Assembly (NCBI GenBank): GCA_958510875.1
Contig: OY294070.1
Span: 3,968,001-4,032,000, forward strand
Direction: 5' to 3'
From: Endomychus coccineus
Lineage: Eukaryota > Arthropoda > Insecta > Coleoptera > Endomychidae
DNA length: 64,000 nucleotides
The notes under the pieces were generated by a model, which did no database searches, was not told the origin of the DNA, and worked only from the letters and a program-made list of their open reading frames with translations. The position numbers were made by a program, and so were the translations under genes. Below are positions 39,580-63,737 of this stretch, piece by piece. The stretch's first letter is position 1, and each line of letters starts with the position of its first letter.

Positions 39580-40458
39580 ATGGCAACGCGAATACGCTCC
39601 GATCTTCAGCTTGTAAAGCTGCTTCATAAGATCAGTGCAATCTACGGTTTGATGCCTTTGGCCCTTATGAAAAGAAACCGTTACAATCATCTGTATTTAC
39701 ATAAAATCTACGTCTTCCTCGTTTTCGGTTTTTCGATGTCGGCCATTACGCTTTACTTTGGCATGCATTTGATCTATGAAATTTATCCAGGATTCACCTA
39801 TAGGATTTTGAAGCTCGGTACCGACATCATATTTGTTGTGAATACAGCAGTCCTATTCATCACAGTTATCGCAAACCAGCAGCATTGGGACTTGCTGTAC
39901 CAATGTATAGACGTTTTGGACGAAAAACTGGAAAATAACGTAAGGACACCATTGAAAGACGCAATGTTCCGTTTATTAATGACCATTCTACTAATCTACA
40001 TAAACTTAGCCATACCCATAATCGAATTCCATTCGCTGCAAGAAATTAATGTGATGATTTGCGTGAATTTAATCGTAAAAACATTGATGTTTTTTTTTCA
40101 CATTCTGACGCTTCTGGTAACTTTGGCCTTGCTAGTGCTGCTACGAAACAGATACGTGGATTTGACTTTTCTGATTGAGCACTATCGTGATCTTTCTGAT
40201 GAACGACAACCAGAACAAGCTCCGATACGTTTGAACGTGACCTCATTTGATGACTACTTCGGAGAACTAACTATACATGTCCAAGTGCTGTTTGAAGCGG
40301 TCGAATGTTTCGATAAAATACACGGCAGGATCGTTTTTTGTCTGATTGTAGGTCCCGTGGTTCACGCGCTGGCTTTGATCAATGCTCATCTGCTGGCCAG
40401 AAATCTTGGACAAGATGAATGGTTCACCTCGAGCGTTCCTGTGATTTTATTCATTGTG
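39580..40458 (+). CDS. Gustatory receptor 5' exon A
   Basis: ATG at 39580 starts MATRIRSDLQLVKLLHKISAIYGLMPLAL. The open frame begins 15 bases earlier but only at a TTG. Hydrophobic segments fall near residues 42-66, 82-100, 130-150 and 155-185, then near 250-268 and 284-293. It carries IYGL near residue 21, shared with B and F. It ends in phase 0 at ILFIV before GTAAGT. It is the most diverged of the set. An acceptor-like site only 49 bases downstream (40508) offers a second, truncating splice choice; joining to 63471 would need a 23-kb intron. Confidence 0.85.
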
Positions 40459-40507
40459 GTAAGTAAATACGTTTGATGTATTGGACTAAATCATTTTATC
40501 TTCACAG

Positions 40508-40576
40508 ATTTTCGCAAGCTCAAAGCTGGTAGTATTACACTACCACAATTTTTGTATGGAAGATGGACGCTATTGA
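40508..40576 (+). pseudogene. Possible relic private 3' exon of Gr A
   Basis: A 49-base sequence from GTAAGT (40459) to TTATCTTCACAG (40507) has the look of a minimal insect intron. The following frame IFASSKLVVLHYHNF continues in phase 0 with hydrophobic character like the start of the shared exon (IFTCDSII), then stops after 22 codons. No TYxxxxxQF follows. A CR1-like element begins at about 40637, so the remainder may have been lost. The match is weak. Confidence 0.3.
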
Positions 40577-40636
40577 ATCATACAAAATTTCAACTGCATC
40601 ATAAAGTTCACTTAATGTCCGCAAGGCATAAAGTAG

Positions 40637-43250
40637 ATAGAATAGAATAGAAATATGTATTGCTTATAACTACACAGTTTTGGCAGTGTCAGGATCAAGA
40701 TGGATAAAATATGGTAATATAACAAATACAGAATACACTTGCAGCATACTACAATTTAAAAAATTATAATTAAAAAATTCACAAACAGAATAAAAACAGT
40801 TCTGTGTCAGAAATGATTTTGCAACCTTTCTAAATGGTGAAGAGCAAGTCCACTGACTACATATATCCATAGATATCGTGAGCTATTTTGGTCTTTTTAC
40901 CACGTTGTAGGTCATTAAAATTTGAATCCGACAGTGCATTTCTTAGTCTTAAAACGTGGAATGGAGTTAGTATTTATTGCATGTATTGTTTATATTTGTC
41001 AAATAAAATATATTTTATATTTGTAAGTAAATTTAGGTAATAATTAGGGTATATGGAACACAGAATGAACATAACAAATTTGAGTGGACATGTATGACAT
41101 ACCATACAAAATTTATATAAAGCTATTCAAGATTATTTAAAACAAATAATTGGCCAATGGGGCAACAAAAATTCTTTTATCGAGTAGAATGCATGACTAT
41201 GAAAGAATTTTTTTAATGTGGATTTAGAAACATTGAGTGAACACTCTTTTAGCTTCTTGGGTAGCTTGTTCATAAATATTTTACTATAACAGTTACCAGA
41301 AGAGCGACTCGAATTTAATCTTAAGTAGTCAATATGAATATTATGGCAACATCTAGTGTTATATATAATTGTGCAGATTATTATTAAAAATATGTGTGTC
41401 AGATGACATACCCATTAGAATACAATTATAAATATATAGTGACGGAAAAGTCACAATTTTGGAATCAATAAAACTGTTTCTAACGTCATCTCGAAAACGT
41501 TTCTTTGTTAAGATTCTCAACACTTTGAGGGCGAAAAATCATATCCGAATGAGGTGAATTACCCCAGCCTGTCAGGGCATATGACATATGCGACTGAGTA
41601 AAGGCCAGTAGTTTACTAAATTTCTTATCAAGAAAATATTTTCTGAGATTTTGTTAGCTACACTGTCAACATGACACTCCCAACTAAGAACTGGATCAAA
41701 TAAGATACCCAAAAATTTTATTTAGTCAAGGTTTCCAAAAGTAATGCTTCTGTGTGTTAATAGCATTATACCAGTTTTGTCATGGTTTACGGACAGTTCA
41801 TTTGCACGAAACCAGTCAACAAGACTTTCTTGGGAATCACTCAAGCAAGCCAGCAAATTCCTTTCGTTGTTCTCGCTTCGAACCATACTGATGTCATCGG
41901 CAAAGAGCTGGAGATCTGCCGCTCCCATCGCCTGAACTAGATCATTAATGAAAATGAGGAACAGTAGCAGACCAAGGGTAGTACCCTGTGGAAGTTCACT
42001 GACAACCTCACCATGTTGCGAGGAGGTTCCATTGATGACAGTGTGCTATTTTCGGTTGAATGAAAAATTAAATTACAACTGTTATGAAATTTGTAAAATT
42101 TTAGTTTATCAACAAGAATAGAAAGAGAAACCAGGTCAAAAGCTTTGCTTAGGTCACAAAAGAATGTGCCTACGATAAACCCTTATTCCATACCGCTTAC
42201 AATGATCTCTATAAGTTTATTTACAGCATCACTGGTGCTCCTACTTTTACGGAAGCCAAACTGATTGCAATAAAAAATGTTTGACTTTTCAAAATAGTCG
42301 GCTATCTGATACGTCAAGCACGATTCAAAACTTTTGAAAAAAATGGAACCATAGCTATTGGTCTATAATTGTTCATGTCGTCTTTAGATCCCTTTTTATT
42401 CACAGGAATAACCTTCGTAATTTTAAGAGCACCAGGGTATATTCCGGCGTCTATAGATTGATTTAATAAATTGGTTAACGGATAAATACGAAAGGTAAAT
42501 TACATTCTTAATTAGGTTATAATGGTCTTTACTTTTTTTATTTTATATTTTGTTAATTACATCTCTTACATGGATACACGAAACGTGAGAGAATGAGACT
42601 GACTTAAGATTTATCTTTTCCTAAAATGTTTAATATTTCGTATAAGATTTTTTTAATTTAGGTATTTATGATTTGATCTCTAAAGGAATATTTAAAAAGA
42701 ATGAATTTAACTAATTTGGGTCCAGTGTTGCTGAATTATTATTCTTATTCTTCTTTCCATTGTTAGCATGAAATATATCCCAATATGGTTATGGTTATTT
42801 CAATTAATTTATACTTAAAAAGTTCATTATTGTAAGATCTTTTACCAGAAAAAAGAATCGTTTTAATCTCTTCATCGTTGGGAAAATTAGATTTAAGTTC
42901 CCCCAAGAATCTTAGACATTCTCTCTTGTTGGAAGCTCGTCATAAACCAACTAAGCTGTAAGCTGTTTGATGAGGCTTGGGCCTATTTAACCTTAGCAGG
43001 GAAAGACACATTGACAGCTTCAACAAAAATTTGGATGAATTTGTTAAAGTTTCCATTGATATCTAAGTTATTATTACCAACAAAGCCCCAATTTGCCCTT
43101 TAAATGATGTTATAAAAAGTCTCCATATCTAATTCAGTAATAGACCTGTTCAATCCTGTTTTTCCTCAATCCATTTTAATACCAACTGCCCTATGAGTTG
43201 TTGTATTCGTCGTACAGACGTCTGAAGTGTCGTGCGTCCATTTGCAATAA
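40637..43250 (-). mobile_element. CR1-like non-LTR retrotransposon, decayed
   Basis: On the minus strand reverse transcriptase blocks appear in order: NNYRPIAMVPFFSKVL near 42370, NQFGFRKSRSTSDAV near 42260, CDLSKAFDLV near 42150, and LQLFADDISMV (catalytic A-D-D) near 41905-41870. SVNHDKTGIMLL lies near 41790. Thumb-like pieces follow to about 41030, and a short TTCTA-type repeat tail at 40637-40655 marks the 3' end. Frames are broken. It sits between Gr exons A and B, inside any intron joining A to the shared exon. Confidence 0.7.
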
Positions 43251-43381
43251 ATCATTCTTCATGTTTATCTTGGTCATGCTAGTTGATATCGATTAAGTTA
43301 TCTAGAAAATCATCTAAGCTTGACCTCAACCAACTAAACTATTATTACGTTATTATCCCCGCATTCCTCGATCTCTACACA

Positions 43382-46065: not shown

Positions 46066-46268
46066 CTATCCGCTAGTTGATTAATTGCCTCGGAATGTAA
46101 GCATCGAATTTGGAACGTCCTGTACATTTAGAGAAAGAAAGAATACTAATCACATGATTTACTTTATCGTGATCAACTATTATTCAGTTATAGTCACGCT
46201 AATTAAAATATGTTCATTTTATCGTTGAAGTGGTTGCTCCAACTCGATCAAACCGCCGACACACAATT

Positions 46269-47132
46269 ATGGGTGAGAAAATTTGCAGCCGTCTCGATTT
46301 GAAACTGCTGAAATTTGTCCAGAAATTTGGAATTATATCCGGAGGTTATCCCTTGTATAACATACAGAATGTCTCAATCTATTACTTAACGGCTTATAGA
46401 ATGTACATTTACTTCATATTTATATCTACAGTTGTAGTTATAATCGAACATCTTTACAACTATAGTCAAAAGTGGACTAGAATCACCAATATTGCAACTA
46501 CCCTTTGTTCAACAGTATGCTCAACCATCAACGAAGCTTCACTCTACTTCTTGACTTTCAGACATAGTCATAACTGGAAACTGTTCTTCAAACTACTCAA
46601 TTATTTGGATAGCAAGATCTTAGTCGTCGAAGAAGATTACGTTCAACATGCAGTCATTAAACTAATGATTATCATTCTCTTTCTATTTTTAGTGGTATTC
46701 ATGCCAGTCTATAATCTCTTCGTGAACCGATATTTAAAATTGGATGATATCGAATTGTCTTTATTGAGAAGCCATGCATTCCAGACCACCGTATACTTGT
46801 ACGTGATGCTAAAGCTAATAAACAATAAATACGCTGATTTGAACTACATGGTGGTGAACTACGGCCGTCCCTCCAGTACGGCTCGAAGGACCAAAAGAAG
46901 AATATATCATACAGGGAGTCTTAAGAACTATTTTTTGGATATCACCAAGTACCACAGAGTCTTGGTGAGATTGGTTAAATGTTATAACGATATGTTTGGA
47001 TGGTCTATGTACAGCTTTATTGTATCTACATCTGTTTACTTATTGCATGTCTTCGAAGATGATATGTTCAAGAAGGAACTTGACGTTGCAGAGCTATATG
47101 GTACCTTCATTCCAATTATAATCTATGGACTG
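46269..47132 (+). CDS. Gustatory receptor 5' exon C
   Basis: ATG at 46269 starts MGEKICSRLDLKLLKFVQKFG; an earlier in-frame start would be a GTG. The 288 codons are open to the donor, with hydrophobic segments near residues 43-60, 76-92, 128-146, 165-185, 245-262 and 275-288. It ends at IIIYGL in phase 0 before GTGAGT. It is nearly identical to D and E. The frame after the donor ends quickly in ELGN and is intron sequence. Confidence 0.88.
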
Positions 47133-47339
47133 GTGAGTATTACAATTAGCTTCGATAAAATTGAACTAGGAAACTGATAAACCAAAGACGAATTAAAAAA
47201 TGAAGAATTGAAGAAGATCCAATTACTGGATAGAAATAAAACGATCACTGGCAGATCTAAGAATAAACGAAGAAGCCAAACACTGCAGGTTGAGAGGTTA
47301 CATTAAAAGGTTTGAATTAGTACAGGTTTCTCCAAACTA

Positions 47340-48544
47340 CGGCCCGCCAGTGTCATCAATCCGGCTCGCGACAGTTTAGAACAGTTTTTTTTTCTAAGCG
47401 ATGCAAAGAAGCTCGTGTATTTCCTAAAGCGAAAAAGAATAACCCGACAAACATGTCTGATATTAGAGATCTAAGCATCCTGCCAGCTTTATCCAAAGTA
47501 CTGGAAAAAGCTATCCAAACTCGAATAAACAAATTCGTTCAGGACAAAAACGTACTACCCAAAGTACAATCGGGCTTTACCCGGGACAGATCTACCACCA
47601 CAGCACTAAGAAACATTGTAGATGACATAATAAGAAGTACTGATGTAGATCAGGTGACTGCCCTAATTTTATTAGATTCCAGTAGGGCGTTTGACACCAT
47701 TAGTCACAAGTTACTATGTGCCAAACTAGAATATGTGGGGTGAACAAGCCGTACGGATGATGGGAAACTACATTGATGGTAGATCGCAGCTGATTGTGCT
47801 TGACGGCTGCGTGTCGGAAAAATTGAACGTTGATAAAGGTGTCCCACAGGGTTCATTACTGGGACCTCTCTCATATAATACATATACATTGGATCTCATT
47901 GATTCCTGGAGACATTGTAACGCACAATCTTATGCAGATGACACGCAGCTGTACAAGTCATTCCCGTTGGGGTTTTGTAAACCATCTATCCATCTTATCA
48001 ACGAGGATCTAAACAACCTTGTCCAACGTGCTGAAGAACACAATCTAACAATTAATCGTTCTGAATCATATGTGTTGTACTTTGGAAAAAAAAATGACAG
48101 GTCAAAGATCGAAAACTTACTCATCCCGATTGTTATAAAAAATCAAACGCTAGAGGTTAAAACCTCTGTTAAAAATTTAGGAGTAACTATAGATAGCGAT
48201 CTCAAATTTACAGAGCACATTAATAGAATCGTAAGCGGTTAAGCTACGGAACACTGAAACATCCCTATAACTACAAAGACCGTCTTCCTTGCAACACTAA
48301 AGCTCTTTTATGTAGCTCCTTAATAATCTCTAGGTTTGATTACGCTGATATGGTGTATGGGCCTGCGCTGGATAGAGATACCTCAACAAAGATCGAAGAA
48401 ATACAAAAATCTGGCTTACGTTTCATCTTCAAAATAAGACGACGAGAACCGATTTCACATAAGCTGCGAGAGCTTGGTTGGTTGACAATGGAGCAGCGAA
48501 GGCGTCAACATTTAGCAATTGTTACAAAAAAACTACTGACTATC
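47340..48544 (+). mobile_element. Jockey-like reverse transcriptase fragment, unit 1
   Basis: Blocks MSDIRDLSILPALSKVLEKA, QSGFTRDRSTTTALRN, LLDSSRAFDTISHK, GVPQGSLLGPLSYNTY and SYADDTQLY are in order, covering the fingers, palm and part of the thumb of a Jockey-type polymerase. A five-base deletion near 47736 relative to unit 2 splits the frame. It is preceded by a hAT-end-like CTCCAAACTACGGCCCGC at about 47331. The 5' endonuclease part is missing. Confidence 0.8.
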
Positions 48545-48626
48545 TAATAAGATTCTTGACCCAGTATGAATTATATATAAAAATTCTCGGGAAATAGGTC
48601 ACCATAACACTTTGTTTTAGATATTC

Positions 48627-48668
48627 GTCTTTACGTACGTTTCGGTCTCACGACCATCATCAGAAGAC
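48627..48668 (-). ncRNA. Hammerhead ribozyme candidate, PLE D inverted end
   Basis: Minus strand: GTCTT, CTGATGA, extra T, stem II GGTC-GTGA-GACC, GAAA, CGTACG, GTA, AAGAC. Stem I (GTCTT with AAGAC) pairs perfectly. It is the mirror of the motif at 50629-50670 in the same element. Confidence 0.68.
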
Positions 48669-49226
48669 TCACTATGTCTAAAAAGGGGTTTATTAAAACT
48701 AATTATAGCACAAGCGTCCAAATCGCACAATTTAACTTCAATCAAAAGAGCCCATGCCGTCGAAACGAACAGAACTACGAATAATCGAAATTGTATCGTC
48801 AGTATTAAAGTATAAAAATTTTTTTTTGTAGTAAGAATCCGCTATTCAGTAATATTATTAAAATATATGAGTGCATATTGATTGGTATTCTCACAACAAC
48901 TGAGACGAACGAAGTTATTTGTCAAGTATCTGCTTTCGAAACCAGATGTGTAGGATTTATGAGTAGGTACTTAAGAACGGTTTCAGACCTGTACTGGAAA
49001 TTACTATTACGAATTCTTCCTAAAAACATTTTCAACAATTATAAAGACGTATGTAAGAATTTGCAAGAGATTATTTAATCAAATTAGTATAAATATTACT
49101 TAGATTTTGTGTGTCTACCCTATGATTAACAGATTTGGGGTCCCGTTTTATGTGAATCATATCCAGGATAGATCTTTTATAATAATTGGTTTCCTTAGTT
49201 AAGATATTAACGTTTTTGTAATCAAA

Positions 49227-50225
49227 TTGATTGCTAACCTCGTTATGGAGTGCCTAGAGGAATCTGTTATGAGTTCATTAGATTTTCGGCCTGTATTCTT
49301 TAAACGGTATGTAGACGATTGCCTTATGTGTGTTCCCAACGATAAAATTCAATATGTAATTGATAAATTTAACAATTTCCACTGTGAACTTCAATTCTCT
49401 TGTGAAATAGAATTAAACAATAACATAAATTTCCTAGATATGAACATTAGGCATGATGCAGATGGAAAAATAAAAACCTCTTGGTTTACTAAAGAAGTAT
49501 GGTCTCAACGTTATCTTCACTTCAATTCCGTTGCACCAGCTTGTTATAAAAAAAGTGTCATAAACAGCCTTACAGATCGCGCGATAAAATTGTCCCACGC
49601 AGATGACCGCCCCAAAAATTTAAAAATTGTTCGTAATACACTAGAATTGAATGGCTACCCAAAAACTTTTTTCAATCCTATCATTAAAGAAAGAATAAAC
49701 AAAATCTATAATGGTTCGTCGTATAAAAATAACATAAAAGGTAATACAGACAATTTTATAACTCTACCTTACATTCCGGAGACCTCAGAGAAAATCAAAA
49801 AATGTTTGAAAAAGTATGATATAAAGGTTGCGCATAAACCTACTAACTGTGTTGGGAAATATTTCTCAAATCTAAAACCTTTAATACCCAAAGATAAACA
49901 AACCCACACAGTGTATAAATTGAATTGTTTAGATTGTGATGGAACCTATACTGGAATCTCTAAACAATATTTACAAAAAAGAATGTACGGCCAAAAATAT
50001 AGCACAAGAAATAACAACTTAGAAAATTCCACCGCCCTTGCTAAGCATTGCTTTGATTATAACCATCAATTTGATTACAAAAATGTTAATATCTTAACTA
50101 AGGAAACCAATTATTATAAAAGATCTATCTTGGAGATGATTCACATAAAACGGGACCCCAAATCTGTTAAACATAGGGTAGACACACAAAATCTAAGTCA
50201 TATTTATACTAATTTGATTAAATAA
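49227..50225 (+). CDS. PLE D polymerase-endonuclease, 5'-truncated
   Basis: An uninterrupted frame of 332 codons fuses the C-terminal part of a Penelope reverse transcriptase (IANLVMECLEESV, catalytic YVDDC near 49312) to a GIY-YIG endonuclease (DCDGTYTGISKQYLQKRMYG near 49937, RSILEMIHIKR near 50120 with the metal-binding Glu kept). The N-terminal part, including the MGSP motif, is missing through 5' truncation, so it cannot act alone. No stop or frameshift has accumulated, which fits a young insertion. Confidence 0.88.
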   Translation: MIANLVMECLEESVMSSLDFRPVFFKRYVDDCLMCVPNDKIQYVIDKFNNFHCELQFSCEIELNNNINFLDMNIRHDADGKIKTSWFTKEVWSQRYLHFNSVAPACYKKSVINSLTDRAIKLSHADDRPKNLKIVRNTLELNGYPKTFFNPIIKERINKIYNGSSYKNNIKGNTDNFITLPYIPETSEKIKKCLKKYDIKVAHKPTNCVGKYFSNLKPLIPKDKQTHTVYKLNCLDCDGTYTGISKQYLQKRMYGQKYSTRNNNLENSTALAKHCFDYNHQFDYKNVNILTKETNYYKRSILEMIHIKRDPKSVKHRVDTQNLSHIYTNLIK

Positions 50226-50628
50226 TCTCTTGCAAATTCTTACATACGTCTTTATAATTGTTGAAAATGTTTTTAGGAAGAATTCGTAATAGTAATTTTC
50301 CAGTACAGGTCTGAAACCTTTCTTAAGTACCTAGTCATAAATCCTACACATCTGGCTTCGAAAGCAGATACTTGACAAATAACTTCGTTCTTCTCAGTTG
50401 TTGTGAGAATACCAATCAATATGCACTCATATATTTTAATAATATTACTGAATAGCGGATTCTTACTACAAAAAAAAATGGTTATACTTTAATACTGACG
50501 ATACAATTTCGATTATTCGTAGTTCTGTTCGTTTCGACGGCGTGGGCTCTTTTGATTGAAGTTAAATTGTGCGATTTGGACGCTTGTGCTATAATTAGTT
50601 TTAATAAACCCCTTTTTAGACATAGTGA

Positions 50629-50670
50629 GTCTTCTGATGATGGTCGTGAGACCGAAACGTAAGTAAAGAC
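50629..50670 (+). ncRNA. Hammerhead ribozyme candidate, PLE D 3' end
   Basis: GTCTT (50629-50633), CTGATGA (50634-50640), extra T, stem II GGTC-GTGA-GACC (50642-50653), GAAA (50654-50657), short CGTAAG, triplet GTA ending at 50665, and AAGAC (50666-50670). Stem I pairs perfectly. The stem III palindrome is weakened (CGTAAG instead of CGTACG) compared with the other copies. Confidence 0.65.
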
Positions 50671-51407
50671 GAATATTTAAAACAAAGTGTTATTGTGACC
50701 TATTTCCCGAGAATTTTTATATATAACTACTGACTATCAAATGTTCTGAGTACCTACACAATAAGTGAATTACTCGTGACCAGATTCATTCACGCAATAT
50801 TAGGTATCCACAAACTCTCTCCATATCTGGTCTTTCAATATGTTGTTCAAAAAATCTTCCACATATTCTGCATGTCATTTGTACATTGGGAAGGTCAGAC
50901 TGACTTCTTTTCCAAAATTTAAAACTACGCAAGCTAAAATCTCTGTAATTGATATATGAGTAACCCACATACTTTATTAATTGATACTTTTTTCTCAATT
51001 TACACTTTGTGAATATATATTTTAAAAGTATAATCAATTGTAAAAACTGTGTAAGGCTAGGACGTTGAGTGGAAGAACACCACACTGATGGTGAACTCCG
51101 CCTAATAAAGCCGGTATCACATTACATACTTCCCCTGTACTAAATACAATGAGGGTAGTAAAATCTGAAATGTTTCTTAAGAGTCGACATTTTAAAAGCT
51201 ATATCCGCCAGCCAGTTGATTATTCTCCTCGGGATGTAAGCATCGAATTTGGAACGTTCTGTACATTTAGAGAAAGAAAGAATACTAATCACATGATTTA
51301 CTTTATCGTGATCAACTATTATTCAGTTATAGTCACGCTAATTAAAATATGTTCATTTTATCGTTGAAGCGGTTGCTCCAACTCGATCAAACCGCCGACA
51401 CACAATT

Positions 51408-52271
51408 ATGGGTGAGAAAATTTGCAGCCGTCTCGATTTGAAACTGCTGAAATTTGTCCAGAAATTTGGAATTATATGCGGAGGTTATCCCTTGTATAAC
51501 ATACAGAATGTGTCAATCTATTACCTAACGCCTTATAGAATTTACATTTACTTCATATTTATATCTACAGTTGTAGTTATAATCGAACATCTTTACAACT
51601 ATAGTCAAAAGTGGACTAGAATCACCAATATTGCAACTACCCTTTGTTCAACAGTATGCTCAACCATCAACGAAGCTTCACTCTACTTGTTGACTTTCAG
51701 ACATAGTCATAACTGGAAACTGTTCTTCAAACTACTCAATTATTTGGATAGCAAGATCTTAGTCGTCGAAGAAGATTACGTTCAACATGCAGTCATTAAA
51801 CTAATGATTATCATTCTCTTTCTATTTTTAGTGGTATTCATGCCAGTCTATAATCTCTTCGTGAACCGATATTTAAAATTAGATGATATCGAATTGTCTT
51901 TATTGAGATGCCATGCATTCCAGACCACCGTATACTTGTACGTGATGCTAAAGCTAATAAACAATAAATACGCTGATTTGAACTACATGGTGGTGAATTA
52001 CGGCCGTCCCTCCAGTACGGCTCGAAGGACCAAAAGAAAAATATATCATACAGGGAGTCTTAAGAACTATTTTCTGGATATCACCAAGTACCACAGAGTC
52101 TTGGTGAGATTGGTTAAATGTTATAACGATATGTTTGGATGGTCTATGTACAGCTTTATTGTATCTACATCTGTTTACTTATTGCTTGTCTTCGAAGATG
52201 ATATGTTCAAGAAGGAACTTGACGTTGCAGAGCTATAAGGTATCATCATTCCAATTATAATCTATGGACTG
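51408..52271 (+). pseudogene. Gustatory receptor 5' exon D, one premature stop
   Basis: The full exon is present and nearly identical to C, from MGEKICSRLDLKLLKFVQKFG to YGL before donor GTGAGT. Codon 277 is TAA at 52236-52238, where C has TAT. That ends the frame about 11 codons before the donor, so any transcript would lack the last two membrane segments. All other reading is open and the donor is intact, so loss is very recent. A polymorphism or an assembly error is possible. Confidence 0.88.
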
Positions 52272-52639
52272 GTGAGTATTACAATCAGCTTCGATAAAAT
52301 TGAACTAGGAAACTGATAAACCAAAGACGAATTATTTGTGATTATGTGAAATGTGAACGGGGTTTCTTGTCTGCGATTTTTGCCCAAACCTAATATGTAA
52401 TTCTAATCACGGCCGATTTCCATGTCATTTATACACAAACTTTGTGCGCTGGAAGTAATCTAATGCTTAATAAGTACCAGTACCATATTGGAAGAACTCA
52501 AAAATGAAGAATACAAAAAAGATCCAATTACTGGATAGAAATAAAACGATTACTGGCAGATCTAAAAATAAACGAAGAAGCCAAACACTGCGGGTTGAGA
52601 GGTTACATTAAAAGGTTTGAATTAGTACAGGTTTCTCCA

Positions 52640-53880
52640 AACTACGGCCCGCGTGCCAAATCCGGCCCGCCAGTGTCATCAATCCGGCTCGCGACAGTTT
52701 AGAACAGTTTTTTTTTCTAAGCGATGCAAAGAAGCTCGTGTATTTCCTAAAGCGAAAAAGAATAACCCGACAACCATGTCTGACATTAGAGGTCTAAGCA
52801 TCCTGCCAGCTTTATCCAAAGTACTGGAAAAAGCTATCCAAACTCAAATAAACAAATTCGTTCAGGACAAAAACGTACTACCCAAAGTACAATCGGGCTT
52901 TACCCGGGACAGATCTACCACCACAGCACTAAGAAACATTGTAGATGACATAATAAGAAGTACTGATGCAGATCAGGTGACTGCCCTAATTTTATTAGAT
53001 TCCAGTAGGGCGTTTGACACCATTAGTCACAAGTTACTATGTGCCAAACTAGAATATGTGGGATTTTGTGAACAAGCCGTACGGATGATGGGAAACTACA
53101 TTGATGGTAGATCGCAGCTGATTGTGCTTGACGGCTGCGTGTCGGAAAAATTGAACGTTGATAAAGGTGTTCCACAGGGTTCATTACTGGGACCTCTCTC
53201 ATATAATACATATACATTGGATCTCATTGATTCCTGGAGACATTGTAACGCACACTCTTATGCAGATGACACGCAGCTGTACAAGTCATTCCCGTTGGGG
53301 TTTTGTAAACCATCTATCCGTCTTATCAACGAGGATCTAAACAACCTTGTCCAACGTGCTGAAGAACACAATCTAACAATTAATCTTTCTGAATCATATG
53401 TGTTGTACTTTGGAAAAAAAAATGACAGGTCAAAGATCGAAAACTTACTCATCCCGATTGTTATAAAAAATCAAACGCTAGAGGTTAAAACCTCTGCTAA
53501 AAATTTAGGAGTAACTATAGATAGCGATCTCAAATTTACAGAGCACATTAATAGAATCGTAAGCGGTTAAGCTACGGAACACTGAAACATCCCTATAACT
53601 ACAAAGACCGTCTTCCTTGCAACACTAAAGCTCTTTTATGTAGCTCCTTAATAATCTCTAGGTTTGATTACGCTGATGTGGTGTATGGGCCGTAGCTGGA
53701 TAGAGATACCTCAACAAAGATCGAAAAAATACAAGAATCTGGCTTACGTTTCATCTTCAAAATAAGACGACGAGAACCGATTTCACATAAGCTGCGAGAG
53801 CTTGGTTGGTTGACAATGGAGCAGCGAAGGCGTCAACATTTAGCAATTGTTACAAAAAAACTACTGACTATCAAATGTTC
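52640..53880 (+). mobile_element. Jockey-like reverse transcriptase fragment, unit 2
   Basis: This is the copy in unit 2 with an uninterrupted frame to 53570. It has MSDIRGLSILPALSKVLEKA, SSRAFDTISHK, GVPQGSLLGPL and HSYADDTQLY, with catalytic D-D intact. It is preceded by hAT-end-like sequence with two CGGCCCGC words. The endonuclease is missing and the frame after the thumb is broken, so it is a passive passenger of the duplication. Confidence 0.8.
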
Positions 53881-54159
53881 TGAGTACCTACACAATAAGT
53901 GAATTACTCGTGACCAGATTCACTCACGCAATATTAGGTATCCACAAACTCTCTCCATACCTGGTCTTTCAATATGTTGTTCAAAAAATCTTTCACATAT
54001 TCTGCATGCCATTTGTACATTGGGATCCCTGTGAACATCAGACTGACTTCTTTTCCAAAATTTAAAACTACGCAAGCTAAAATCTCTGTAATTGATATAT
54101 GAGTAACCCACATACTTTATTAATTGATACTTTTTTCTCAATTTACACTTTGTGAATAT

Positions 54160-56464
54160 GCAGGGTGTCCTCGAACTGCGTGGCCAAAATAAAACCGAAG
54201 ATTCTTTGATTCGAAAAAAAGTTGATGAGCCTTTTTACTTTTGTCTCAAGTGTCTTGTTTACCCCGTAGAGGGCTTCAAAATTGCAAAAATAATTTTGTT
54301 TTTTCGGTATAACTTGAGAACGTGATGAAGAACTTTTACAATATTTAGCAGGTGAGTTACTGTAAATAATGGCTATTTTTGAGAGTGGAGCACAGAGCCT
54401 TAGAGACCATAGAAATGGCAAAATGTAACGGGAAAAGTGTCCAGAACTTTTTTGTGGTCAATGTAATTCACTCGATATTCTTTATGTAGTTAGCTTATCT
54501 AATTTGAAAACTTTTCTTACTCTTAGAATATTTTGATAAAATCAACGGATTAGCTTGAAAAAATTAATTTTCGAGTCACTGCAATTTTGGCTCACTAATT
54601 TTACTTGATTAAAATACCTTAGTTGCCTTTGCTTTTCTAATGTCATTTTGGCATTTGAAGAATTTATTCTCAAAACTGTCAGTTTTTATTTTGCTTTCCG
54701 TAAAAATTTTATAAAATTATGGCTCAAAATTTCACTAACACTGAAATGGTTGATGTGTTATTGATTTATGGACTTTGTAGTTGCAATGGCCGGAGAAGGG
54801 AAAGATATCCACATCGCAGAATTCCAAATCGGCAAACCTTCGCGAAACTGGCAAATTTGAAGCAAATCGCAGAGAAACTGGACGCAGACGGACAAGAAGG
54901 ACGTTAGAGCTCGAAGAAGCGATACTGGAAGCGGTTGAAACTGAACCTGGGATAAGCACACTACGTTTGGGACTTCGTATTGGAGCCTCAAAATCATTAG
55001 TTCATAATGTACTGAAAGAAGAACTGTTGTATCCCTATCATATTAAAACAGTTCAAGACTTATTGCCCATGGATCCAGGTCATCGGCTAGATTTCTGTCG
55101 GCTTATTGTCCAAAGACAAAACGCAAACCCCAATTTTTGTAGAAGAATTCTGTTCACGGACGAAGATACTTTCACGAGATGTGCTCTTTTTAACCTCCAT
55201 AATGAACATTTCTATGTTGATGAAAATCCTCATGAAACGGAAGTTACATATTTTCAGAATCAAACTAAAATCAATGTTTGGGTTGGAATTGTGGATAACT
55301 TTATTATTGGCCCTACCGTTATACCCGATCGATTGAACGGGGAGAACTACTTGAACTTTTTGGAACAAAGGCTACTTGAACTGTTGGAAGACTTGCCCTT
55401 ACACATTCGTTGTGGCCTGGTTTATCCATGATGGTGCATTTCACATTAGCTGTGAGGCGACATTTGAATGCGGAATATCCAGATCGCTGGATAGGTAGAG
55501 GACACGATGCACCAGTGAACTGGCCGGCCCGCTCCCCTGATTTGACGCCCTGCGACTTCTTTCTATGGGGCGCTTTGAAGTCGAAAGTTTATGCAGCTCC
55601 ATTAAACACACGAGAGGAATTGTTGCAACGAATTAATCATGAAGCGGATTTATTGAAGAATGATCCTGAAGTACTAGCCAGAGTTCAATCCAATTTCTTG
55701 AAACGAATTAATTTGTGTATTCAGGAAAATGGGCAACATTTCGAACGATTGATGCCTTAGCGATTTCCCAAAAAGTTTTGTTGTTTCTTTTAATTTAGCA
55801 TTTGTTTTTCCTAAATAATCACATCGTTTCCCCATTTCTATTGTTTTTATTATTCGTGTTTTACCGAGATATTAACCATTTCAGTGTTAGTGAAATTTTG
55901 AGCCATAATTTTTACGGAAAGCAAAGTAAAAACTGACAGTTTTGAGAATAAATTCTCCAAATGCCAAAATGACATTAGAAAAGCAAGGGCAACTAAGGTA
56001 TTTTAATCAAGTAAAATTAGTAAGCCAAAATTGCAGAGACTCGAAAATTATTTTTTTCAAGCTAATCCGTTGATTTTATCAAAATTTTCTAAGAGTAAGA
56101 AAAGTTTTCAAATTAGATAAGCTATCTACATAAAAAATATCGAGTGAATTACATCGACCACAAAAAAGTTCTGGACACTTTTCCCGTTACATCCTCAAGT
56201 TTGAGCCATTTCTATGGTCTCTAAGGCTCTATGCTCCGCTCTCAAAAACGGCTATTATTGACAGTAACTCACTTGCCAAATATTGTGAAAGTCCTCCATC
56301 ACGTTCTCAAGTTATACCAAAAAAACAAAATTATTTTTACAACTTTGAAGCCGTCTACCGGCTAAACAAGACACTTGAGGCAAAAGTAAAAAGGCTCATC
56401 AAATTTTTTTCGAATCAAAGAATCTTCGGTTTTATTTTAGCCACGCAGTTCGAGGACATCCTGT
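54160..56464 (+). mobile_element. Tc1/mariner-like element with ~590-base inverted ends
   Basis: The ends CAGGGTGTCCTCGAACTGCG (54161) and CGCAGTTCGAGGACATCCTG (to 56463) are inverted repeats. Pairing continues inward to 54751 and 55874, so each arm is about 590 bases. The left arm includes the first codons of the transposase. The flanks are AT-rich (ATAT on both sides), and the sister tail at about 51017 has no insertion. This dates the insertion after the unit 1/2 split or to one lineage. Confidence 0.85.
54719..55760 (+). pseudogene. DDE transposase, frameshifted
   Basis: ATG at 54719 opens MAQNFTNTEMVDVLLIYGLC, a helix-turn-helix start (DUF4817-like family). The frame shifts near 54850 into RRETGRRRTRRTLELEEAIL and LLYPYHIKTVQDLLP, then RILFTDEDTFTR with the first catalytic Asp. 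A second shift near 55415 gives HDGA with the second Asp. A third leads to RWIGRGHDAPVNWPARSPDL and DLTPCDFFLWG with the third. All three acidic residues survive but at least three frameshifts make it inactive. The same family left relics at 16410 and 17030. Confidence 0.8.
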
Positions 56465-56595
56465 ATATTTAAAAATATAATCAATTGTAAAAACTGTGTA
56501 AGGCTAGGACGTTGAGTGGAAGAACACCACACTGATGGTGAACTCCGCCTAATAAAGCCGGTATCACATTACATACTTCCCCTGTACTAAGTACA

Positions 56596-57778
56596 ATGAG
56601 GGTAGTAAAATCTGAAATGTTTCTTAAGAGTCGACATTTTAAAAGCTATATCCGCCAGCCAGTTGATTATTCTCCTCGGGATGTAAGCATCGAATTTGGA
56701 ACGTTCTGTACATTTAGAGAAAGAAAGAATACTAATCACATGATTGACTTTATCGTGATCAACTATTATTCAGTTATAGTCACGCTAGTTAAAATATGTT
56801 CATTTTATCGTTGCCGCGGTTGCTCCAACTCGATCAAACCGCCAACACACAATTATGGGTGAAAAAACTTGCAGCCGTCTCGATTTGAAACTGCTGAAAT
56901 TTGTCCAGAAATTTGGAATTATATCCGGAGGTTATCCCTTGTATAACATACAGAATGTGTCAATCTATTACCTAACGGCTTATAGAATGTACATTTACTT
57001 CATATTTATATCTACAGTTGTAGTTATAATCGAAAATCTTTACAACTATAGTCAAAAGTGGACTGGAATCACCAATATTGCAACTACTCTTTGCACAATA
57101 TTATGCTCAACTATCAACGAAGCTTCACTCTTCTTGTTGACTTTCAGACATAGTCATAACTGGGAACTGCTCTTCAAACTACTCAATTATTTGGATAGCA
57201 AGATCTTAGTCGTCGAAGAAGATTACGTTCAACATGCAGTCATTAAACTTATGATTATCATTCTCTTTCTATTTTTAGTGGTATTCAGGCCAGTCTATAA
57301 TCTCTTCGTGAACCGATATTTAAAATTGGATGATATCGGATTGTCTTTATTGAGAAGCCATGCATTCCAGACCACCGTATACTTGTACGTGATGCCAAAG
57401 CTAATAAACAATAAATACGCTGATTTGAACTACATGGTGGTGAACTACGGCCGTCCCTCCAGTACGGCTCGAAGGACCAAAAGAAGAATATATCATACAG
57501 GGAGTCTTGAAAACTATTTTCTGGATATCACCAAGTACCACAGAGTCCTGGTGAGATTGGTTAAATGTTATAACGACATGTTTGGATGGTCTATGTACAG
57601 CTTTATTGTATCTACATTTGTTTACTTCTTGCTTATCTTCGAAGATGATATGTTCAACAAGGAACTTGACGTTGAAGAACTCTGTAGTAAGATCATTCCA
57701 GTTATAATCTATGGACTGGTAAGTATTACAATTAGGTTCGATATAATTGAACTAGGAAACTGATAAACCAAAGACGAA
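56596..57778 (+). repeat. Tandem Gr duplication unit 3, partial
   Basis: Homology to units 1 and 2 runs from GAGGGTAGTAAAATCTGAAATG-type sequence through Gr exon E to about 57778 and then stops. The reverse transcriptase fragment is absent here. Confidence 0.8.
56855..57718 (+). CDS. Gustatory receptor 5' exon E
   Basis: ATG at 56855 starts MGEKTCSRLDLKLLKFVQKFG. The 288 codons are open and co-linear with C and D, with scattered substitutions (for example CTILCSTINEASLFLL where C has CSTVCSTINEASLYFL). It ends at IIYGL in phase 0; the donor is GTAAGT, stronger than GTGAGT in C and D. It would need a 5.75-kb intron to reach the shared exon. The exon is functional by sequence. Confidence 0.88.
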
Positions 57779-57789
57779 TTATTATGCAG

Positions 57790-59043
57790 TAGACCCTTGA
57801 CCATATTTTCTACGAATAGTAGCTTACTGAGGATTAGCTTCCCACAACACCACTCGATTTACAAGAACGTCTTATTTGCTAACTCTTACATTCCGCTTAG
57901 CGAGTACTTTGGTAGGAGCTATCGAAGAAGGCAAGGTGACTCTGTTGCCGGTCCGTCTAGGATGGATAGGAAAATGTTCATGGAAGATGCAATTAGTCGT
58001 AGTGCATAGTAGAGACCAAATGGAATGAAGAGAATCTTGCACAATTCCTTCCCAATCTTGAATACGAAGATTCCGTGTTTTCAGTGTCAAGCTAACGGTT
58101 TTCCATAATGTTTCATTAAATTGTTCTATCTAACCCATTTCCTTGAGGGTTGAAGCAATTATATTTGCATTTAGAAGAGATTCAAGTTCTTTACGCATGA
58201 AAGAGGTTCCTCGATCGGAGTAGGTGTCCCAAAAGTATAGCAAAGATGCTTCAATTCATGCATTTAATTACAATAGCTGCTGAAATATCTCTGCAGGCAT
58301 AGGCGAATGTAGATCAAAAGAATTCGTCAATGATGCTCAGTATGTATCGATATTTAGGCAGTCAAACGGAGATGTAGCTTTGATAAGAATCCCTTCAGTT
58401 TTAAAATATCTGGGTTTTACCTCTGCGCACCTAGAACAACTGGCAGTGAGTTTTCTAACATCATCCAGCAAATATGGCAGGTTTTTACTGCTCAACCATA
58501 GAACATAAACGTTACGCCCGGGTGACCCAATGATTGGTGGAGCTCAGATAATTCTGTGTTATGGGTTGCACTTCAGACTAAGGTGTCAGCCTAGACATTC
58601 TCCCTTCCCCTGGACTATAAGTAATATCAAACGAAAACGGGGCCAATTTCAATCTCCAACGAGTAATCTTTTCATTTTCTAGTTTACTAGCATATTTTTT
58701 GCTAAAATAAACGACAGCGCCTCTTGGTCTGTAATAAGATTGAAGTACTTTCCAGGTCCTAAGCGATTCTGACATGGCTGCAGCCCCTTTTTCAATTGAT
58801 GTGTGTCCCTTCTCAAATTTGTTCAACGTCTTTGAAAAGAACGCTACAGGGAACCCCTCTTGGCTCAGAATCGCACCAATAGCCACATCAGAGACATTCG
58901 TTTCCACCACCAGAAGAGAAATATTTTTCGCAGTTGTAACCATGGAGTTCAAATATTGCCAAAGACCTTCAAGTGGAAAAGAACGACAGTCTGAAAGCTT
59001 ATTGATCTTATCTGAAAAATGTGATATCCACTTTGAATCGTAA
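57790..59043 (-). mobile_element. Gypsy-type polymerase relic (RNase H, integrase)
   Basis: On the minus strand, CRSFPLEGLWQYL and VVETNVSDVAIGAILSQEG near 58990-58860 are the end of the reverse transcriptase and start of RNase H. FSKTLNKFEKGHTSIEK and FDITYSPGEG follow. LSELHQSLGHPG near 58540 and CSRCAEVKPRYFKTEG near 58440 are the integrase zinc-binding part. SLHSIWSLLCTTTNCIFHE near 58050 belongs to the integrase C-terminal region. Many stops are present. The RNase H end (58747-59043) was duplicated with Gr F to 61781-62077. Confidence 0.75.
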
Positions 59044-59999
59044 GCGAAAAAACACAGAACTCTTTACAGGAAGGCGGTATCTTGAGGCAATGAATGGTAA
59101 TGATAATAGAGATAAGGTTAAAATTGCTCTTTATTCTGTTGATTTCTATTCATAATTTTGTGAAGGTCAACTTGACAGCAGTTGTCAGTATATAGGTCCG
59201 AAATACATTATGTAAACCATTTGGATATGAAAGACCCGAATTCTTAAAACTCCATCTCAATATATCTCTTAAAGTCCTAGTGTACATATACCCCCAAAAT
59301 ATAGTATACAATGCAATCGGCTATGTTTATATTTTTTAACACCCTCACACCCTGTATATAAGAATATTAATTATTCTCAGTGTAGACATGATCTATTTCT
59401 CGATCGCTTACATATTTTATAATTAACGATAACTACAGCTTTAGCAAATATGTTCAAATATTTCATCTATTAAATATAATGTATTATTTGTAATTATAAA
59501 CGAAAGTATACATATCGATTGGGTTATTTCGAATCTAAAACATCAAGGTACTATTAGCGTTAATGAAAACATGAGAACCGTTCAACCTACACGTAGAGAC
59601 CTGGAATGTTTCATATTCATTCAGAAATGGGGCATTATCTATGGCTTGGCGCCATGGGCTAATCTAAGAACCCTTGGTGTTAACCACATTCGCTTGTATA
59701 AATTGTACGCAGTTTTGATGAATCTTTTCATGGCGGCTTTGACGGTCTTCTTCATACACTATGAGATAATAAATTGGGATACTAAAATGGTCTTTACTTC
59801 ATCGGCGATCAAGGTTAGCACTATATCATCTATTGTAATGTACCAAGGTATCGATACTATGATGTTATATGGCAATAAAGATAACTGGAATGCTATTGAT
59901 GGTCTCGTAACAAATTTAGACGCAGTCTTTGTTGAACTGAACGTAGTACGTGAGGAAAAGAAGATAACTCGTCTCATCAACATACTCGTGAAGGGTCTA
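58747..59999 (+). repeat. Gr F duplication, copy 1
   Basis: This segment (gypsy RNase H piece, about 530 bases of upstream sequence, Gr F start) recurs at 61781-62980. The upstream region from 59045 to 59570 holds no gene. Its close conservation with the second copy comes from the duplication and does not by itself show a promoter. Confidence 0.85.
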
Positions 60000-60425
60000 T
60001 TGATTATTGCTGGATTTTTATTACCAGTCACTCAATGCTTATTGCTGGATAAATGGAACTTTACGAAGGTAGCTTCCCAAATTTTATACTCTCTAGGGAG
60101 GGTGAATTTTTCCATTATGGCCACAATGACATATTCCATATTGAGATTGAACAATAATAGGTACAAGAATTTGAGAAAACTATTTGTCATCAACAAGGAT
60201 CGATGCAGAAACCCTGATTATTTGGCTGACTACTTTCCTGCTTTGACCAAGTGTCACAGGCAACTTTTTGAAATTGTTATATATTCCGAAAAACTGATAA
60301 GATGGCAAATGTTCGGTTGGACAATTGGTAGTGTTGTGTTCATCCTAGAAATTTTGAATAAGGTTTTAATCATAGGAGATGGCTATACTATAGCAGGTAT
60401 CGTTGCAGTTCCTCTGGGATTTATC
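59571..60425 (+). CDS. Gustatory receptor 5' exon F
   Basis: ATG at 59571 starts MRTVQPTRRDLECFIFIQKW and continues GIIYGLAPWANLRTLG. The 285 codons contain six hydrophobic segments and the conserved loop LADYFPALTKCHRQLFEIVI. The exon ends at VPLGFI in phase 0 before GTAAGT at 60426. It is the closest intact 5' exon to the shared 3' exon (3.0-kb intron). The frame happens to stay open for 47 codons past the donor (to 60569), but that tail has no Gr motif and is intron sequence. Confidence 0.9.
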
Positions 60426-60589
60426 GTAAGTTGTTATCTTATACGTACAAGATTGAGAAGAGTTTTGAATACTGTTTGGTATCTCAATGACTACATAGAT
60501 ACATGGTTAGGTAATGCTGTACCACAACCCTGTTCTCGGGTATCTACTGCTGTAATAAATTTTAGATAAGCTGTAGTAAATTGTACTAG

Positions 60590-61620
60590 GACTGGTATGT
60601 CCCAGCGTCCCCTGGATCGACTGCAGCGGCTTGCATGCGTGAGTATATTGAGCGGTGTGAATTCGGCACCAACGAGAGCCCTTGAAACTCTCGCCGGATC
60701 ATCACTTTTATGTAAAAACTAAGGCCATGAGTACGGCGTATAAGTTAAAGGGCCTAGGTCACCGAACCAAAATGTACTACTCTCGTGGACACTTAGCGAT
60801 TTCAAGTGAATGTTCCATACCAGAAATGAAGCAAGATAGTCTGATTCCAGCTATATGTCTCACTTCTTCCAAAATCCTCATCCCGGATAGAGGAGACTGG
60901 AGTAACGAAACTCTCACCCTACTGCCCCAGGTGGGCACGTATGGTTCACAGCTGGGTTCAAGGTAGGTCAAGCTTCTGGGGTGGTAGCGTATCTGAACAA
61001 GGCAAAGATCACTATCTCAGTGACCCTAAGTGCTTACTGCACGATCTTCCAGGCGGAGGTTTGACAAGAAACTGGCAGCTCTCAAATCACCCAGAGTTAC
61101 ATCAAGGCTTCTCAAAGAATGAAGAGACACACTAGCTGAACTAGCCAGAAGAAATGAAGTTCAACTCCTCTAGAACGAATGAGGCAGGTTTAGCTCTCCA
61201 CCAAAGAGCATGTGCCTAGACTCTCAAAGAAACTCCTTTCTCTGAACAGAAGGGACATCAGAGAGTTGACTGGAATTCTAACTGGTCACAGTCGTTTTAA
61301 CAAATACCTTCGTACTATGGGCATCACTGATGATCCTGTATGTAGGAAATGCAGAGGGACGGAAGAAATTGCCTCTCACATCCTGAGGGAATTCCCTGCA
61401 TTGGCACCCTCCAAGTACCATTACTTCGGCGAAGCAAACCACTCCCAGAAGAACTTACGGAAGCCAGCACTGGCAATATTCTGGGTTTTGGCTGTCCACA
61501 AACCTGCTAGAATGGAATAGGCTTCTGACCGAAGTGCGTACAATGGGCCCAACTAAGTGGCTTAAGTGCATTTGGGGACTATGCCTTTTTCCCTCAAATA
61601 ATGATGATGATGAATAAATT
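60590..61620 (+). mobile_element. Non-LTR retrotransposon 3' part (RNase H type)
   Basis: Plus-strand RLQRLACVSILSGVNSAPTR near 60622, KAMSTAYKLKGLG near 60721, IRELTGILTGHSRFNKYL near 61255 and DDPVCRKCRGTEEIASHIL near 61325 match the region after the catalytic core, through RNase H to the C-terminal tail. The 3' end has GGGCCCAACTAAGTGGC and an ATGATG repeat near 61600. It is the same family as 22480-23100 and 35226-35870. It is broken by several stops. Confidence 0.7.
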
Positions 61621-61780
61621 GCAATTAATGTGATGAAATTCCCACATAATTTTTTTGGTGGTGTGCTAAAAAGGCTGTTGCAGCATTAGGTACATAAACT
61701 TCCTACAAGCAATAAGATTGGAAAAACTGCTTCAGCCGTTGATCATTAAGACGGAAGAAGATACAATATACCTCTTAACA

Positions 61781-62980
61781 ACTTTCCAGGTCCTAAGCGA
61801 TTCTGACATGGCTGCAGCCTCTTTTTCAATTGATGTGTGTCCCTTCTCAAATTTGTTCAACGTCTTTGAAAAGAACGCTACAGGGAACCCCTCTTGGCTC
61901 AGAATCGCACCAATAGCCACATCAGAGACATTCGTTTCCACCACCAGAAGAGAAATATTTTTCGCAGTTGTAACCATGGAGTTCAAATATTGCCAAAGAC
62001 CTTCAAGTGGAAAAGAACGACAGTCTGAAAGCTTATTGATCTTATCTGAAAAATGTGATATCCACTTTGAATCGTAAGCGAAAAAACACAGAACTCTTTA
62101 CAGGAAGGCGGTATCTTGAGGCAATGAATGGTAATGATAATAGAGATAAGGTTAAAATTGCTCTTTATTCTGTTGATTTCTATTCATAATTTTGTGAAGG
62201 TCAACTTGACAGCAGTTGTCAGTATATAGGTCCGAAATACATTATGTAAACCATTTGGATATGAAAGACCCGAATTCTTAAAACTCCATCTCAATATATC
62301 TCTTAAAGTCCTAGTGTACATATACCCCCAAAATATAGTATACAATGCAATCGGCTATGTTTATATTTTTTAACACCCTCACACCCTGTATATAAGAATA
62401 TTAATTATTCTCAGTATAGGCATGATCTATTTCTCGATCGTTTACATATTTTATAATTAACGATAACTACAGCTTTAGCAAATATGTTCAAATATTTCAT
62501 AATTTCATCCATTAAACAATGTGTGTTATTTGTATTTATAGAAAAAAGCATATAACATATCGATTGAGTTATTTCGAAATTAAAACATCAAGGTACTATT
62601 AGCGTTAATAAAAACATGAGAAACGTTCAACCTACACGTAGGGACCTGGAATGTTTCATATTCATCAAGAAATGGGGCATTATCTATGGCCTGGCGGCCT
62701 TGTCTAATTTAAGAACCCTTGGTGTTAACCACATTCGTTTGTTTCAATTTTATGCAATTTTAATGAATCTTTTCATGGCGGCTTTGATGGTTTTCTACAT
62801 ACACAACGAGATAATAAATTGGGATACTACAATTTTCTTTACCACATCGGTGATCAAGGTTATCACTCTATTTTGAGGTATAACATGCCACGGTATCGAG
62901 ACGCCGTCTTTGTTGAAAGGAACGTTGAACGTGAGGAAAAGAAAATAACTCTTCTCATCAAGATACTCGTGAACGGTCTA
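61781..62980 (+). repeat. Gr F duplication, copy 2
   Basis: Copy of 58747-59999 with the gypsy RNase H scrap (61781-62077), the same upstream sequence and the truncated Gr G. The break at the right end falls at GGTCTA, where the CCTAA repeat begins. Confidence 0.85.
62616..62980 (+). pseudogene. Gustatory receptor 5' exon G, truncated
   Basis: The frame starts MRNVQPTRRDLECFIFIKKW and follows F for 86 codons to KVITLF, then a TGA. Homology resumes after an internal deletion of about 70-80 bases relative to F (bases near 59849-59928 are missing) and ends at GGTCTA (62980), about 143 codons into F. The donor is lost, so G cannot contribute a receptor. Confidence 0.88.
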
Positions 62981-62993
62981 ACCTAACCTAACC
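62978..62993. repeat. Short CCTAA repeat at the Gr G breakpoint
   Basis: CTAACCTAACCTAACC is about three units of the insect telomere repeat (TTAGG on the other strand), located exactly where homology to Gr F stops. It is short enough to be chance. Confidence 0.45.
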
Positions 62994-63470
62994 ATCTCTG
63001 ATAACGTCACGTGGTCGCACCACATTTAAAAATATGGAAGAGGTGAATACTTCTATATGTTTGTTTGACAAAGTTTTTCCCAATCATTGTTCTATCCAAC
63101 GGCAAAGTTGTAGAACTCTTTGCCTAATGAGGTCTTTCCTGATGGGTATAACCTCTCCCGACATCCCATCGCTGGCTCATTCGATGTTCTACAAGCATTA
63201 TAGGTTTTCCTCTCATGTGGTACAAATAAAAAAGTTGAATCATTCGAACGCAGGATATTCTATAACAACATGATAATCATGCTTCCAGTTGATTATTATA
63301 TAGGATATGTGGTAATTGTGAAGCATAGGAATCAATAGGAACTTGGGAATTAACATCAAAGGTTCCTACATTTTCCCGAGAATATATGAGACTTGAAATT
63401 GTTTTTTAAATAATTTTTACCCATATAGCGTACACTGGAATGTTTATTCAGACTTCTATTTTATTTTCAG
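62994..63470. other. Intron sequence before the shared Gr exon
   Basis: A reverse-oriented partial copy of the repeat at 44287-44525 lies near 63050-63225, and a PLE-end-like TTTCCCGAGAATATATGAG at about 63378. The acceptor of the shared exon, a pyrimidine-rich tract ending TTTTATTTTCAG, ends at 63470. Confidence 0.55.
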
Positions 63471-63737
63471 ATCATGCTTGTGTTGATCTTCACATGCGAT
63501 TCGATCATCAATGAAAACGAAAACCTATTTCAAGCTTGCCTGAAACTGCAAGAAGATTTCTTCCTTTCAGGCTACGAGAATAAAGACTTGGATCAGTTCA
63601 CACAAGAAGTGAAAGTACTTAAGCCATATTTCACCGGTGCTGGGTATTTCAACATTGACAGGACAACCTTGTTGACTATTCTAGAAGCGCTAACTACCTA
63701 CTTCATAGTGATTGTACAGTTTAATCAAAAAATCTAG
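63471..63737 (+). CDS. Gustatory receptor shared 3' exon
   Basis: After acceptor TTTTATTTTCAG the exon opens in phase 0 with IMLVLIFTCDSIINENEN. It continues LFQACLKLQEDFF, a helical intracellular loop, and ends with ALTTYFIVIVQFNQKI and a TAG. TYFIVIVQF is the Gr family signature T-Y-(5 residues)-Q-F inside the last membrane segment. The 88 codons complete any of exons A, B, C, E or F to a full-length receptor. The ATG at its second codon is internal and not a start. No poly(A) signal was obvious in the remaining 260 bases. It is the only exon of this kind that I found. Confidence 0.92.
   Translation: MMLVLIFTCDSIINENENLFQACLKLQEDFFLSGYENKDLDQFTQEVKVLKPYFTGAGYFNIDRTTLLTILEALTTYFIVIVQFNQKI

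Follow-up and report, generated by a model that had tools for sequence, protein, structure and literature searches.

Layout of the gustatory receptor locus

The window analysed here is the 64-kb stretch C5:3968001-4032000 of the 906 Mb genome of Endomychus coccineus, assembled in 129 contigs (C1, C2: and C5 before coordinates denote contigs), and its subject is a gustatory receptor (GR) locus on the + strand. Seven copies of a GR 5' exon were found between 39580 and 62876 (positions without a contig are those of the window), followed by a single 3' exon, T1 (63471-63737), with the end of the window 263 bp beyond it. The 5' copies were named A, B, C, C2, D, E and F, exon C2 being distinct from contig C2. 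Five of them (A, B, C, D and E) are intact and run open from an ATG to a GTRAGT donor. An earlier note on this DNA had proposed up to seven alternative first exons in front of one last exon; the seven copies are indeed present but only five are usable, C2 carrying an in-frame TAA and F having no donor. The features of the locus, with transmembrane segments (TM) as predicted, are as follows.

39580..40458, + strand: first exon A, intact; 293 codons, predicted to run from TM1 to mid-TM6; donor GTG/GTAAGT; 7tm_7 score 26.7 bits
43382..44275, + strand: first exon B, intact; 298 codons; donor GTG/GTAAGT
46072..47195, + strand: duplicated 5' unit, made up of about 200 bp of upstream DNA, exon C and about 60 bp past the donor; copies at 51211-52334 and 56658-57781
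46269..47132, + strand: first exon C, intact; 288 codons; donor CTG/GTGAGT
51408..52271, + strand: dead copy C2 of first exon C, with which its unit shares 98% of nucleotides; donor CTG/GTGAGT retained
56855..57718, + strand: first exon D, intact; 288 codons; copy of C with 91% amino acid identity; donor CTG/GTAAGT
59571..60425, + strand: first exon E, intact; 285 codons; donor ATC/GTAAGT
62568..62876, + strand: dead truncated copy F of E, without a donor; ATG at 62616, frame ending at 62876
63471..63737, + strand: 3' exon T1, predicted to encode the rest of TM6, an intracellular segment and TM7 with TYFIVIVQF, up to the stop; phase-0 acceptor

The TAA of exon C2 (52236-52238) is codon 277 of 288 and lies 12 codons ahead of the donor. 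The homology between F and E is patchy and reaches about 62980.

A predicted common splice junction and the search for other 3' exons

The splice coordinates of the earlier note proved correct, with donors at 40458/GTAAGT, 44275/GTAAGT, 47132/GTGAGT, 57718/GTAAGT and 60425/GTAAGT and an acceptor ...TTTTATTTTCAG/63471, after which T1 starts in phase 0. As the note had stated, the donors all fall in phase 0 at the same point of the protein; this holds for A, B, C, D, E and C2, the six exons that have a donor. The donors of the five intact exons share one alignment column, and C2 aligns to C over 1124 bp against 1124 bp. Because the + strand of the window contains only 23 GTRAGT, the occurrence of this motif in one column of four diverged exons is not a matter of chance. 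As for the acceptor, 6 of the 1259 AG sites at 40459-64000, that of T1 among them, equal or better the T1 acceptor by three simple criteria. These multiple long 5' exons, with one donor phase and one position in the protein, are compatible with a single acceptor.

Joining A, B, C, D and E to T1 gives, from the first ATG, proteins of 381, 386, 376, 376 and 373 amino acids, respectively, the normal receptor length that had been anticipated. Four joins were scanned against 7tm_7 (A, B, C and E with T1; D was not included) and all four matched, B+T1 with 65.9 bits (cut-off 26.6) over profile positions 7-369 of 370, the only join for which coverage was printed. As single exons, T1 scored 44.1 bits (profile 285-369) and A passed the cut-off narrowly with its 26.7 bits; no 7tm_7 match was listed at E up to 1 for B, C, D or E alone. 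Searching a large protein set with the B+T1 protein returned 2187 word-sharing candidates, none at E ≤0.001, and no outside relatives entered the analysis. A profile of the four joined proteins matched solved gustatory receptors weakly, in five of the ten matches listed (E 0.003-0.03), the other five being unrelated (E near 1), and the C-terminal TYFIVIVQF motif of T1 (63696) aligned, again weakly, with the end of the solved receptors. Aligned with 8zdz, the junction lies within a hydrophobic stretch ahead of a shared cysteine, and we take this stretch to be TM6. The variable part would span TM1 to mid-TM6, and the common part the rest of TM6 and TM7.

Only one exon with the TYxxxxxQF signature had been seen originally, and this was confirmed: the strict TYx5QF pattern occurs once in 39580-63737, at 63696. 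The only other + strand candidate there, a looser '...QF' match at 41773, was rejected as a last exon as it lies antisense inside a reverse-transcriptase open reading frame (ORF). The earlier note had named another 3' exon lying between the 5' exons as an observation that would refute sharing; none was found from A to T1 by motif, profile or tblastn. The 3'-exon profile, built iteratively over four GR clusters of the genome, gave no match in this interval at E up to 1. In lenient tblastn searches of the same interval with six 3' exons, the best match on the minus strand had an E of 0.77; the best one on the + strand, at E 8.1, lay in a reverse-transcriptase ORF. In a positive control with the same tblastn, 3' exons of other families detected T1 and the four 3' exons that follow it downstream (T2-T5) in all 20 pairs, 11 of them below 1e-5 and 17 below 1e-3 (worst 0.19, Tb versus T2). 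The 3' exons of outside lineages are only 24-31% identical to T1, yet they were detected by tblastn; since these equally diverged exons are detected, private 3' exons should be visible if A, B and C still had them or had lost them only recently. Private 3' exons are also detectable where present, as the four further 3' exons of the continuing array show. A model in which each first exon has its own 3' exon is thus disfavoured by the profile and tblastn outcome.

We therefore consider it probable (roughly 85%, judged from the sequence) that these exons belong to a single GR locus, in which the five usable first exons (A-E) are alternatives that share T1 as their terminal exon. The shared 3' exon put forward in the earlier note is the best-supported reading, with no second 3' exon among the 5' exons, and is amended to five usable first exons rather than seven. 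Each first exon has a start codon of its own and most likely also a promoter directly before it. RNA transcribed from one such promoter would be spliced from the donor of that exon, over up to 23 kb, to the sole acceptor at 63471, and the downstream first exons, as first exons without a used acceptor, are predicted to be removed with the intron. The products would be five receptors with differing ligand-facing parts (TM1 to mid-TM6), and presumably different ligands, and an identical pore-side part (mid-TM6 to TM7). New receptors would arise by duplication of the 5' unit only, as from C to C2 and D, and single ones would die by nonsense (C2) or truncation (F).

Duplication, descent and selection across the array

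The array runs on past T1 with five more 5' exons (G, H, I, J and K) and four more 3' exons (T2-T5), some of them broken.

C5:4033971: 5' exon G, preceding T2 at C5:4038442
C5:4040456: 5' exon H, preceding T3 at C5:4042577
C5:4048207-4049272: 5' exon I, split over two frames, preceding T4
C5:4054641-4055521: 5' exon J, split over two frames
C5:4055882: 5' exon K, preceding T5 at C5:4058955

These pairings (G-T2, H-T3, I-T4 and K-T5) were assigned by adjacency. T4 starts 15 residues later than T1, and the listing showed no phase-0 acceptor at the corresponding place. Upstream of A, no 5' or 3' profile match at E up to 1 was found back to C5:3958001. The window therefore covers the part of the array in which many first exons face one 3' exon, and towards the opposite end the ratio is close to one-to-one. 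Some 5' exons of the window might skip T1 in favour of 3' exons past its end, T2 or others, which would give combinatorial C-termini. The acceptor of T2 also matches in phase 0 and lies only 7 kb beyond T1, and the T1 and T2 peptides are 94% identical; however, T1 is the nearer acceptor, no sequence feature favouring its skipping was seen and G directly precedes T2, and we hold such skipping to be very improbable.

A maximum-likelihood tree was built from 16 of the 18 aligned 5' exons (C2 and the identical a4 were omitted; F, I, J and the exons of contig C2 were never in the set). In this tree A, B, C, D, E and G form one clade; a branch with a support of 98/98 divides it from H, K, b1, b2 and exons of a cluster at C1:8.8 Mb, and the program gave a long-branch warning. 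The mutual identity of A, B, C and E is 20-28% and their synonymous divergence (dS) is saturated in six of six pairs; A-E comprise four deeply diverged lineages in one clade, with one 3' exon after them. Over 1124 bp, which include the roughly 200 bp of upstream DNA, the units of C, C2 and D show 95-98% identity; they contain no 3' exon. Likewise, J and K form a head-to-tail duplication of about 1.16 kb that holds the 5' exon only, and no 3' exon lies between E and F. Because none of the C/C2/D, J/K and E/F copies carries one, 5' units evidently duplicate without 3' exons.

The stretches 47187-48548 and 52491-53876, after C and C2, are 96% identical and hold reverse-transcriptase ORFs (RVT_1, 1e-26, in the second). 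Long inverted repeats with arms of 239-430 nt, 91-98% complementary, surround ORFs without a Pfam match at 48571-50726 and 54149-56475, and these stretches are probably transposons in introns. Identical 300-nt stretches of a retroelement RNase H ORF lie before E (58747-59046) and F (61781-62080), consistent with a recent event or a conversion tract; the divergence of E and F is about 11% in the part compared. Just upstream of A, an ORF at 37482-38162 (+ strand) encodes a phage-integrase-type tyrosine recombinase domain (PF00589, 4e-9), perhaps from a tyrosine-recombinase transposon, and the ORF preceding it (36891-37385) has no Pfam match.

Exons A-D could also be orphans whose own 3' exons were lost by deletion or transposon insertion, so that only E, together with G and I, would use T1-type exons. 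T1, T2 and T4 are copies of one 3' exon and E, G and I of one 5' exon, so that a gene of the E-T1 type was duplicated within the array; transposable-element sequences are present between A and T1, and two of the seven 5' copies are dead. Against this, three deep lineages (A, B and C/D) would each have to have lost a 3' exon, no relic of which was found, and A-D nonetheless keep frames of 288-298 codons and GTRAGT donors, whereas neutral frames are mostly broken by 0.1-0.2 substitutions per site. In simulations, neutral frames of such length survived 0.2 substitutions per site in ≤1% of runs; A and B were therefore under selection until recently. The ratio of non-synonymous to synonymous rates (dN/dS) of C and D, 0.48, also speaks against orphaned exons, albeit as a weak test, and two other clusters show the same layout. 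Orphaning of A-D thus appears unlikely.

Several observations weigh against the shared use of T1 by five first exons. Small split 3' exons are a blind spot of the profile, and those of the C1:8.8 Mb cluster were nearly missed (E 0.72), a concern tempered by the unsplit 3' exon that follows each of G, H, K, b1 and b2. The C-D ratio comes from 39 changes (p 0.03 in a binomial test with 0.79 as the neutral share), and such a test is weak, the C-C2 pair with its dead member giving 0.47 on 14 changes. The dN/dS of E and G is about 1.0, and E may be under relaxed or positive selection. The promoter-motif scan, covering 250 bp upstream of 16 of the 18 first exons (without C2 and a4), is weak as well: TCAKTY was present in 12/16 (background rate 0.36), TCAGT in 7/16 (0.26), TCAGTY in 4/16 (0.14) and TATAWA in 8/16 (0.32), with the near-copies C/D and E/G counted apart although they are not independent. 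The Initiator- and TATA-like patterns upstream of the first exons are thus at most suggestive.

Other pairs broaden the picture of selection. The dN/dS of C2 and D is 0.58, and that of H and K (C5:4040456 and C5:4055882) is 1.6, from 49.5 versus 8.5 changes with a high non-synonymous share. For H and K the region compared ends 6 bases past the preferred donor ATG/GTTAGT; A-E are unaffected by this. For the 5' exons of the E-G and H-K pairs, such ratios are compatible with relaxed selection, positive selection or decay. Between T1 and T2, 10 changes are synonymous and 5 non-synonymous (multi-change codons taken as non-synonymous), against 14 and 52 between E and G (Fisher p 0.0011). Between T3 and T5 the counts are 5 and 13 (p 0.04 versus T1-T2; p 0.28 versus H-K). 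These counts therefore show a constrained 3' exon in the T1-T2 comparison and do not show one in that of T3 and T5.

The two parts of the receptor also differ in their genealogies. The 5' distances are 0.062 for E-G (0.047-0.075) and 0.131 for E-I (0.110-0.151), and the 3' distances 0.140 for T1-T2 (0.106-0.174) and 0.041 for T1-T4 (0.023-0.059), with bootstrap ranges that do not overlap. E is hence closest to G by its 5' part, whereas T1 is closest to T4 by its 3' part, a discordance that implies separate duplication or gene conversion of 5' and 3' modules. I and T4 are broken copies, and quicker decay would not draw T4 toward T1. As a tentative proposal, which we rate somewhat below even odds, the 5' and 3' exons may be independent modules, with 'heads' copied or converted among neighbouring 'tails'. 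If this is true, the shared tail would be the natural state of the array, and genes with private tails would be heads sitting before a copied tail. Of all the results, this possible modular exchange of heads and tails most deserves closer study.

Other clusters and comparison with known systems

Judged by exon layout, the many-to-one arrangement is found in two further GR clusters of the genome and probably in a third. Seven intact first exons, two of them identical, lie at C1:8802655-8822327, and each has a phase-0 donor. The identical pair (C1:8808428-8809357 and 8811478-8812407) agrees in all 310 codons, which points to a very recent duplication or gene conversion. Across 40 kb of this locus the 3' profile matched three times, twice on the minus strand (E 0.59) and once on the + strand (E 0.72, at 8826682); the + strand match led to two split 3' pieces, one at 8825535-8825624 and one from 8826703 reading CAAAGSSYLFVMLQFEF. 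A further shared exon was sought between the first exons and 8825535 and was not found. On the minus strand of C1:52821001-52871000 lie seven open first exons with phase-0 GTRAGT donors and three 3' exons, one of which matches the second half of the profile only; four of the first exons stand in a row ahead of the 3' exon starting at 52833612. In the cluster at C2:75.28-75.35 Mb, five first-exon frames of greater length were seen together with a single set of split 3' pieces, and that at C1:47.12-47.15 Mb has three first exons (one broken) versus two 3' exons. For the genome 44 domain matches were listed, which is a lower bound, and 23 of these lie in the five clusters.

The locus adds a clear case of a GR gene in which the ligand-facing part would vary and the pore-side part stay fixed. 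Shared-tail and private-tail arrangements stand side by side in one array, with copies of the same exons, which permits a direct comparison of why some chemoreceptor arrays share a tail. It also calls for caution in annotation: if genes were counted by their 3' exons, four of the five receptors predicted here would be overlooked.

In the vertebrate UGT1A locus and the clustered protocadherins, promoter choice picks one first exon, which is spliced to the constant 3' exon or exons. The E. coccineus locus resembles them in its variable first exons; the systems are not homologous, and the promoters proposed here are predicted ones.

Among insect GRs the arrangement is ordinary, with earlier cases in flies and beetles, and it recurs in this genome, which makes it less of a surprise than the earlier note suggested. 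Alternative 5' exons with a shared 3' part are documented in PMC2204066, PMC6720082 and PMC6307266. For Drosophila Gr39a, PMC2204066 describes four large alternative exons, to which other species add a fifth, and three small conserved exons to which they are spliced, together with exon duplications, losses and pseudogenisation, and weaker constraint or positive selection on some of the large exons. Our locus is like Gr39a, as described there, in placing several large, mutually exclusive 5' exons before a conserved 3' part, and in its duplication, loss and pseudogenisation. Unlike Gr39a with its three small shared 3' exons, it has one unsplit 3' exon, and copies with their own 3' exons directly adjoin the shared locus.

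The beetle comparison rests on architecture and not on taxonomy. The account of splice variants in PMC6720082 gives Tribolium Gr214 30 alternative 5' exons and three shared 3' exons. Here too, a long 5' exon encodes most of the receptor and a common 3' part the C-terminus, but there are five intact first exons against the 30 of Gr214 and one shared 3' exon against its three. According to the same account, splice variants were not seen among the GRs of A. planipennis and account for 39% of the A. glabripennis and L. decemlineata GRs, with up to 17 variants from one gene in AglaGr99 (Anoplophora) and 13 in LdecGr48 (Leptinotarsa). In D. ponderosae, most GR splice variants are described there as products of two-exon genes, in which the N-terminal exon is unique and the C-terminal one shared (PMC6720082). 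As far as that description goes, these two-exon GRs of Dendroctonus ponderosae have the same layout as the locus analysed here, and the two differ only in numbers and species.

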